This document shows, one piece after another, positions 18,857 through 23,021 of a stretch of 32,251 bases of DNA. The translations under genes and the position numbers were made by a program. The stretch is from Chlorobaculum sp. (GTDB lineage Bacteria > Bacteroidota > Chlorobiia > Chlorobiales > Chlorobiaceae), in NCBI GenBank assembly GCA_013334855.1, contig JAAXWU010000013.1, positions 1 through 32,251 on the forward strand, read 5' to 3'. Numbering within the stretch: the first letter of the stretch is position 1; every line of letters starts with the position of its first letter. The notes under the pieces are model-generated. The model searched no databases and was not told the DNA's origin. It was given only the letters and a program-made list of their open reading frames with translations.

Positions 18857-20542
18857 TCAACTCCGCTTGTAGCGGTTCAGGGCGCTGACGATGGCCTTGA
18901 TGGAGGCGAGGCTGATGTTCGAGTCGATGCCCGAACCGCAGACCAGCGCGCCGTCATCGAAGGCGAGACGGATGTAGGAGATGGCGAGCGCGTCGGAGCT
19001 GTGGCCGATGGAGTGCTCCGAGTACTCGTCCACATGGAACCCGATGCCGGTGTGGCTCGTCATGCCGCGCACGAAGGCGTCGAGCGGCCCGTTGCCTTTG
19101 GCCTTGAAGCTGAACTCGCCATCAGGCCCCACCATCGAGGAGCTGACAAGCGTCGCCACCTCGTCGTTGCGATCCGGGTCTTCGTCGCTCCAGCTTATGG
19201 TGCACTTTTTCATCAGATACGGCTTCGCGCCGCCGATATACGCCTTCTGGAACAGCTCGTGAATCTGCTCCGCCGAAAGCTCGTCGCCCGTCCGGTCGGT
19301 CACCTCCTGCACGACGGAGCCGAAATCGGGCTGCATCCACTTGGGAATCTGGATGCCGTACTCCTTTTCGAGCACATAGGCGACGCCGCCCTTGCCCGAC
19401 TGGCTGTTGATCCTGACGATGGCCTCGTAAGTACACCCCACATCCTGCGGATCAATCGGCAGATAGGGCACGTCCCAAACGTCAGGCGCTCGTTTGTGCG
19501 CCTTCATCCCCTTGCTGATGGCGTCCTGATGCGAGCCGGAGAAGGCCGTGTAAACCAGATCGCCGGAGTAGGGATGGCGCGGATGCACCGTCATGCGGGT
19601 GCAGCGGCTGTAAACCTCCCGGACATGCGGCAGGTTGGAGAAGTCGAGCTTCGGATCGATCCCTTGCGTCATCAGGTTCAGCGCCATGATGATAATATCC
19701 ATGTTGCCGCACCGCTCGCCATTGCCGAACAGCGCCCCCTCGATGCGATCCGCGCCCGCCATCATCGCCAGCTCGGAGGTTGCGACCGCCGTACCGCGGT
19801 CGTTGTGGGCGTGAACGCTGAAGAGCACCGCGCTGCGATCCTTGATGTGGCGGCAGAACCACTCGATGCGGTCGGCATAGACGTTCGGCGTCGAAAGCTC
19901 GACGGTCGAAGGCAGGTTCAGAATTACCTTGTTCTCTGCCGACGCGCCCCATTCGTCCATCACCGCATGGCACACGTCGAGCGCGTAATCCAGCTCCGTG
20001 CCGGTGAAGCTCTCGGGGCTGTACTCGAAGCGGATGCCCGGATTGCCGCTCGCCTCCTTCAGCTCCCGCACCAGCCGCGTTCCGGCCACGGCGATGGTGA
20101 TGATCTCCTCCCGGCTCATGCGGAACACCACGTCACGCTGCTGGCGCGAAGTCGAATTGTAGAGATGCACGATAGCGTTTTTCGCGCACTTGATCGCCTC
20201 GAAGGTGCGGCGGATGAGATGCTCACGTGACTGGGTCAGCACCTGGATGCTCACGTCGTCGGGGATGAGATTGTTTTCGATCAGCTTGCGCGCAAAGGCG
20301 AACTCCGTGGCTGAAGCGGAGGGGAAGCCCACCTCGATCTCCTTGAAGCCGACGGATACCAGCAGTTTGAAAAACTCCACCTTTTCATCGACGCTCATCG
20401 GAATCGGCAGCGCCTGATTGCCGTCGCGAAGATCGACGCTGCTCCATATCGGCGCTTTGGTGATGGTCTTGTCGGGCCAGGTTCTGTCTGTCAGCCCGAC
20501 GGTCGGGTAGGATGCATATTTCCAGTAATTCATAGTACTCAT
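18857..20542 (-). CDS. leuA: 2-isopropylmalate synthase
   Basis: APIWSSVDLRDGNQALPIPMSVDEKVEFFKLLVSVGFKEIEVGFPSAS; SVHAHNDRGTAVATSELAMMAGADRIEGALFGNGERCGN; ~561 aa type-2 LeuA. Confidence 0.95.
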   Translation of the reverse strand: MSTMNYWKYASYPTVGLTDRTWPDKTITKAPIWSSVDLRDGNQALPIPMSVDEKVEFFKLLVSVGFKEIEVGFPSASATEFAFARKLIENNLIPDDVSIQVLTQSREHLIRRTFEAIKCAKNAIVHLYNSTSRQQRDVVFRMSREEIITIAVAGTRLVRELKEASGNPGIRFEYSPESFTGTELDYALDVCHAVMDEWGASAENKVILNLPSTVELSTPNVYADRIEWFCRHIKDRSAVLFSVHAHNDRGTAVATSELAMMAGADRIEGALFGNGERCGNMDIIIMALNLMTQGIDPKLDFSNLPHVREVYSRCTRMTVHPRHPYSGDLVYTAFSGSHQDAISKGMKAHKRAPDVWDVPYLPIDPQDVGCTYEAIVRINSQSGKGGVAYVLEKEYGIQIPKWMQPDFGSVVQEVTDRTGDELSAEQIHELFQKAYIGGAKPYLMKKCTISWSDEDPDRNDEVATLVSSSMVGPDGEFSFKAKGNGPLDAFVRGMTSHTGIGFHVDEYSEHSIGHSSDALAISYIRLAFDDGALVCGSGIDSNISLASIKAIVSALNRYKRS

Positions 20543-20587: not shown

Positions 20588-20624
20588 TAAAAAAGCCGCT
20601 TACCCTGAGAGGATTGCGGCTTTG
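20588..20624 (-). terminator. leucine attenuator: intrinsic terminator upstream of leuA
   Basis: Minus strand AAAGCCGC-AATCCTCTCAGGGTAA-GCGGCTTTTTT: 8-bp stem plus U6. Confidence 0.8.
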
Positions 20625-20673
20625 AAATCGAATTCCGTGCAGTCAACAAAACTACAATGCGCTCCCCCTCAGG
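20604..20673 (-). promoter_or_regulatory. leucine attenuator: putative antiterminator pairing
   Basis: Minus-strand CCTGAGGGG (fwd 20665-20673, end of leader ORF) pairs with CCTCTCAGG in the terminator loop (fwd 20604-20612): 9 bp, one G.U. It extends by CTTAC/GTAAG across a 3-nt bulge. Confidence 0.7.
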
Positions 20674-20729
20674 CAGGTAAGGCCCGTTAGCGATAGGGTA
20701 AGAAGCAGCATGTTGTTGACCGTGTTCAT
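20652..20729 (-). CDS. leuL: leu leader peptide (25 aa, 8 Leu)
   Basis: ATG AAC ACG GTC AAC AAC ATG CTG CTT CTT ACC CTA TCG CTA ACG GGC CTT ACC TGC CTG AGG GGG AGC GCA TTG TAG = MNTVNNMLLLTLSLTGLTCLRGSAL*; directly followed by the terminator and then leuA. Confidence 0.75.
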   Translation of the reverse strand: MNTVNNMLLLTLSLTGLTCLRGSAL

Positions 20730-20929
20730 ACAAGATAAAGTACCGTTAAAATCGGTGGTGTACGGATTTGACAGCTAATATACACAATTCTCCCACCTCT
20801 GCAACGCCCTCGCGCGAACTGACTCTGATTGTCCGAGTCGGATGGGAATCTGGCACAAGAACCGCGATGCGGGGCAGGAGGTTCCCCACTACACTTGGCA
20901 AGCAACTGAAAGATAACATCCCGCACTTA

Positions 20930-22946: not shown

Positions 22947-23021
<75 letters not shown>

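Follow-up and report, generated by a model that had tools for sequence, protein, structure and literature searches.

A predicted ribosome-mediated leucine attenuator upstream of leuA in the Chlorobiaceae

The enterobacterial leu attenuator (leuL) lies upstream of leuA and combines a leucine-rich leader that contains rare CUA codons with mutually exclusive protector, antiterminator and terminator helices. Ribosome-mediated attenuation is best known from Proteobacteria, as the first-pass annotation of the locus described here stated; that is true, but attenuation of this type is also known in Firmicutes and has been suggested in Flavobacterium. The former case is a leucine-rich attenuator peptide for Staphylococcus aureus ilv-leu (PMC5794164), the latter a prediction of leader-peptide attenuators for amino-acid operons in Flavobacterium psychrophilum (PMC9723704), and leader-peptide attenuation outside Proteobacteria has also been described for Firmicutes hisS (PMC2965389). 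The actinobacterial LEU element before leuA forms a pseudoknot whose base stem takes in the Shine-Dalgarno box of leuA; its description mentions no terminator (PMC1262725). We found no paper on leuA attenuation in Chlorobi in the accessible literature; an earlier prediction may exist (Lopatovskaya 2010, as cited in PMC4833913).

A leucine-rich leader ORF and a terminator upstream of leuA

We analysed a 32,251-nt stretch of a Chlorobaculum sp. contig (JAAXWU010000013.1; hereafter, the window), in which a leader and terminator region on the minus strand (20588–20729) is followed by leuA from position 20542. The features are:

20777–20804, minus strand: candidate promoter, TTGCAG-16 nt-TATATT (direct reading)
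20652–20729, minus strand: leader ORF (leuL-like), 25 codons plus TAG (direct reading; present in 78/82 relatives)
20711–20720, minus strand: segment 1, 5' arm of the putative protector helix, GTCAACAACA (MFE fold; swap test)
20665–20673, minus strand: segment 2, antiterminator 5' arm within the leader ORF, CCTGAGGGG (10-pair column test; swap test)
20642–20651, minus strand: 3' arm of the putative protector helix, just past the stop codon, TTTTGTTGAC (MFE fold; swap test)
20589–20623, minus strand: terminator (segments 3:4), AAAGCCGC...GCGGCTTT plus T-run (direct reading; 93% of cells paired; swap z -7.0)
20604–20612, minus strand: segment 3, antiterminator 3' arm in the terminator loop, CCTCTCAGG (column and swap tests)
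18857–20542, minus strand: leuA, 2-isopropylmalate synthase, 561 aa (NCBIfam PRK03739, 840 bits, and TIGR00970, 725 bits, both above cut-off)

Direct reading bore out the earlier claim of a 25-aa minus-strand ORF with eight Leu codons including CTG CTT CTT. The ORF runs from an ATG at 20729–20727 to a TAG at 20654–20652 and encodes MNTVNNMLLLTLSLTGLTCLRGSAL, in which 8 of 25 residues are Leu, specified in order by CTG CTT CTT CTA CTA CTT CTG TTG, two of them the rare codon CTA. The window contains 295 ORFs of 15–40 aa, counting both strands; of these, the leader is the sole case with at least 32% Leu, and it alone combines that content with three consecutive Leu residues. We saw no obvious Shine-Dalgarno sequence at the leader start codon (upstream of 20729); leuA has AGGAG, and the structure of its RBS region is no greater than that of shuffles (z +0.98). 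An intrinsic terminator had also been claimed between the leader and leuA, and it is present at 20589–20623, with arms at 20623–20616 and 20599–20592 and a T-run at 20594–20589. Of 84 relatives, 69 have a promoter-like pattern, TTG[CT]-N17-20-TAWNTT, in the DNA preceding leuA.

We next considered how widely this arrangement occurs. A search of 98 genomes of the class found leuA in 88 of them; close homologues were confined to one family of two genera, and the named relatives are Chlorobaculum and Chlorobium. Upstream DNA was retrieved for 84 of these genes. In two it runs off the contig, and among the 82 Chlorobiaceae in which it could be read, 78 have a Leu-rich leader ORF and, after it, a terminator. 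The four genomes in which the leader is absent all belong to the genus Chlorobium: two have a tRNA-Asn gene and then the terminator (L068, L080), one has the terminator only (L074) and one has neither (L075). The genome behind L074 bears the title Chlorobium chlorochromatii, a name given to a consortium epibiont. A covariance model built from 40 leader regions gave a single strong match in each of 79 Chlorobiaceae genomes (E 7e-29 to 2e-9), in every case at leuA; 39 of these genomes had been left out of model building. It gave no strong match in 12 genomes of three sister families. These comparisons indicate that conservation of the predicted switch extends to the Chlorobiaceae as a whole. No such leader precedes the leuA homologues of Elusimicrobia, Omnitrophota or Aestuariirhabdus, and an Alcaligenaceae homologue is preceded by a Leu-rich ORF of its own. 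Because LeuA homologues examined in other phyla are without this leader, repeated origin of such attenuators is suggested.

Across 62 leaders, Leu content averages 26%, and 56 have three consecutive Leu residues. In close pairs of sequences, 55% of single-base codon changes are synonymous in the leader frame, compared with 29% and 26% for the two alternative frames, suggesting that the leader frame evolves as coding sequence does. Use of CTA is strongly biased: this codon accounts for 1.3% of Leu codons in ~50 Chlorobaculum genes and for 26% in 20 Chlorobaculum leaders (25.7% in a set of 14), an enrichment of ~20-fold, and each of the 20 leaders has at least one CTA. For Chlorobium, the corresponding values are 12% in leaders and 0.7% in genes (one Chlorobium genome). 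Leader peptides vary in length from 18 to 31 aa; their conserved C-terminal RGGAF overlaps the antiterminator arm, and the remainder drifts outside the Leu run and an NN motif.

A tRNA-Asn gene lies at 22947–23021 of the window, and many of the family's genomes have this tRNA gene upstream of leuA. In two relatives (L035 and L052) it directly precedes the leader, which suggests co-transcription from the tRNA promoter there. In the window, the interval between tRNA-Asn and the leader holds a two-gene candidate anti-phage system (20930–22746, minus strand), consisting of an HEC-01-like AAA ATPase and a DUF4276 protein. Related ATPases occur near leuA in genome G015 (96% identical) and elsewhere in genome G019 (81%); most of the genus is without this system.

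Mutually exclusive pairings and masked folding

We assessed the pairings in 63 aligned sequences, using counts of paired cells and a swap test that compares duplex energies of own and exchanged partners. The end of the leader had been claimed to pair with the terminator loop, and in the window CCTGAGGGG is indeed complementary to CCTCTCAGG. For the 10 antiterminator pairs, 79% of cells are paired, and 8 of the 10 pairs have changes on both sides. The covariation score of this helix (0.314) is best at slide 0, falls to at most 0.249 when the arms are slid, and was reached by 4 of 500 shuffles, which, like the permutations, ignore relatedness. The terminator is nearly invariant, with 93% of cells paired. 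Own partners were better than swapped partners for the antiterminator core (z -6.3), the terminator arms (z -7.0) and the Leu-side pairing of ACCUUC with GGAGGU (z -3.5); four of four decoy pairings, which control for relatedness only partly, were null. By the column and swap tests, the antiterminator and the terminator are mutually exclusive. An inner extension of the antiterminator, in which the leader end pairs with the terminator 5' arm, has 84% of cells paired and no significant or both-sided covariation, and hence is only suggestive. RNAalifold applied to the whole alignment returned the terminator alone, as expected for alternative structures, and we therefore relied on counts for named structures and on swap tests.

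The 150-nt RNA of the window folds better than shuffles (z -2.66). The helix between the leader start and the region after the stop codon had a swap z of -6.5, with 0 of 10000 permutations as good, and reads ACGAAC / GTTCGT in most Chlorobium; these results identify GTCAACAACA with TTTTGTTGAC as the putative protector. A hairpin after the stop codon (GTTC/GAAC) had a swap z of -4.2 and weak support overall. The first-pass annotation had also linked the Leu-codon run to the terminator through an 8-nt match, CTTACCCT/AGGGTAAG. The match is present in the window, but it is not conserved: the sequence is CTTACGCT or CTTGCGCT in close relatives, and pairing of the leader middle with the terminator, one of the four null decoys, had a swap z of -0.4. 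We rejected it as a functional pairing; it is probably an incidental match due to chance.

We then treated the ribosome as a ~30-nt mask in RNA folding. For window RNA in which the 3' arm of the terminator is not yet complete, the probability of the antiterminator was 0.985 for a ribosome positioned at the first Leu codon and 0.96 for one at the last permissive Leu codon, compared with ~1e-7 at the stop codon and 0.01 without a ribosome. Masked folding thus reproduced the geometry proposed at the outset, in which a stall at Leu codons frees segment 2 and a ribosome at the stop codon covers it. In this model, the CTA codons at positions 12 and 14 would be the last stall sites that leave segment 2 free. 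For the full window transcript, the probability of the terminator was 0.19 at the first Leu codon, 0.99 at the last permissive Leu codon, 0.92 at the stop codon and 1.00 without a ribosome. The terminator usually wins in finished transcripts, and timing must therefore matter. The early antiterminator was favoured by a stall over a stop-codon ribosome in 55 of 56 genomes; its mean probability across the 56 genomes was 0.35 when stalled and 0.04 at the stop codon, a weaker contrast than in the window.

Proposed mechanism and competing explanations

The leader, the terminator, conserved and mutually exclusive helices, coding constraint, rare-codon bias and an in-silico stall geometry are in hand. 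Every feature of a classical ribosome-mediated attenuator that can be tested in sequence is present, and we consider it very probable that the region before leuA is such an attenuator, sensing charged leucyl-tRNA; leader translation, stalling and the leucine response are presumed. The leucine attenuator proposed upstream of leuA in Chlorobi is borne out by comparison of leuA upstream regions, where the Leu-rich ORF is conserved in 78 of 82 genomes and the alternative pairings covary, and by the switch in masked folding. RNA polymerase would transcribe a leader with a short Leu-rich ORF. With plentiful leucine, a ribosome at the stop codon would cover segment 2, and on a leader without a ribosome the helix between the leader start and the post-stop region would hold it; in either case the terminator (3:4) would form and leuA would not be transcribed. 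A shortage of charged tRNA-Leu would stall the ribosome at CTG CTT CTT and then at the rare CTA codons 12 and 14. There it would cover segment 1 and leave segment 2 exposed, so that segments 2 and 3 could pair, the terminator would be blocked and leuA would be transcribed.

The strong conservation of RNA structure would also suit a riboswitch or a protein-bound RNA element resembling the LEU element of Actinobacteria, with the Leu run acting at the RNA level instead of through its codons; moreover, an actinobacterial leuA leader with Leu codons is thought not to act by classical attenuation (PMC1262725). We regard this explanation as very unlikely, given that the synonymous excess is specific to the reading frame, that a rare synonymous Leu codon is enriched, that a genuine terminator with a U-tract is present, which the LEU element lacks, that the RBS region of leuA is unstructured and that no Rfam family matches. 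Coding constraint on the frame is what would be expected if the leader peptide were a functional small hydrophobic protein, but its variable length, the drift of its sequence beyond the Leu run and the NN motif, and the coincidence of the conserved RGGAF with the antiterminator arm make that reading highly improbable.

We attach a similarly slight probability to an ordinary terminator of the upstream tRNA-Asn or another transcript, beside which the Leu-rich ORF would be incidental. tRNA-Asn is indeed upstream in many genomes, and only tRNA-Asn and the terminator are left in L068 and L080; nevertheless, the leader and a mutually exclusive, covarying antiterminator are conserved, a candidate promoter lies between the tRNA and the leader, and the covariance model matches at leuA only.

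A second candidate leader and comparison with known systems

In Chlorobiaceae and one sister family, ilvD is preceded by a longer Ile/Val/Leu-rich ORF (for example, ...GIVVTVVIxxxSIVL*; sequences L186, L187, L189, L190 and L195–L224). Its last 16 codons include 6 to 12 Ile, Val or Leu codons (32 sequences), and a conserved CCCAAGTCC...GGCTTCGGGAACGG hairpin region follows. The swap test lent some support to an antiterminator-like hairpin that begins immediately downstream of the stop codon (z -2.7), but a terminator-like one did not pass it (z +3.1); the ilvD leader region has no Rfam match. From its sequence, the ilvD leader is a probable second attenuator, and we offer it as a lead. A broader picture, which we put forward tentatively and hold somewhat short of even odds, is that green sulfur bacteria possess two leader-peptide attenuators of their own for branched-chain amino acids: the leuA switch, in which the leader end would mimic the terminator 3' arm and be able to sequester the whole 5' arm (GGTGCTTTT with AAAGCCACC), and an older ilvD Ile/Val/Leu leader of ~50–70 codons, common to the sister family, with an antiterminator beginning just after the stop codon.

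The leuA leader constitutes a sequence-based case of ribosome-mediated attenuation in Chlorobiota, for which the accessible literature holds no described case and Rfam no family. Searches of Rfam release 15 gave no match at gathering score, only three chance-level matches (E 2.9–5.9), and nothing credible up to E 10 for the leucine leader, T-box or riboswitches. The 78 aligned examples with covariation would suffice to define a new Rfam family and to annotate ~80 missed leader genes.

S. aureus ilv-leu (PMC5794164) is alike in having a Leu-rich leader, in its role in branched-chain amino acid synthesis and in lying outside Proteobacteria, but it belongs to a different phylum, and its operon is ilv-leu and is also under CodY. 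Leader-peptide attenuation has been suggested in F. psychrophilum, of the related phylum Bacteroidota; as presented in the accessible passages of PMC9723704, those attenuators are not leuA-specific and come without covariation analysis. The LEU element shares a leader ORF with a Leu run before leuA, whereas the Chlorobiaceae element has a U-tract terminator between leader and RBS and leaves the RBS free. We found no LEU-type pairing between the Leu run and the Shine-Dalgarno box of leuA, RBS structure being at shuffle level. The likeness to enterobacterial leuL extends to the Leu-rich leader with rare CUA, the three mutually exclusive helices and the position upstream of leuA, but the two belong to different phyla and have no detectable sequence homology (Rfam, E 10), and the Chlorobiaceae leader has three consecutive Leu codons plus spaced Leu codons and a putative protector reaching from the leader start to past the stop codon. 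The kind of switch is textbook, and the Chlorobiaceae element, as judged from its sequence, matches no catalogued RNA family.
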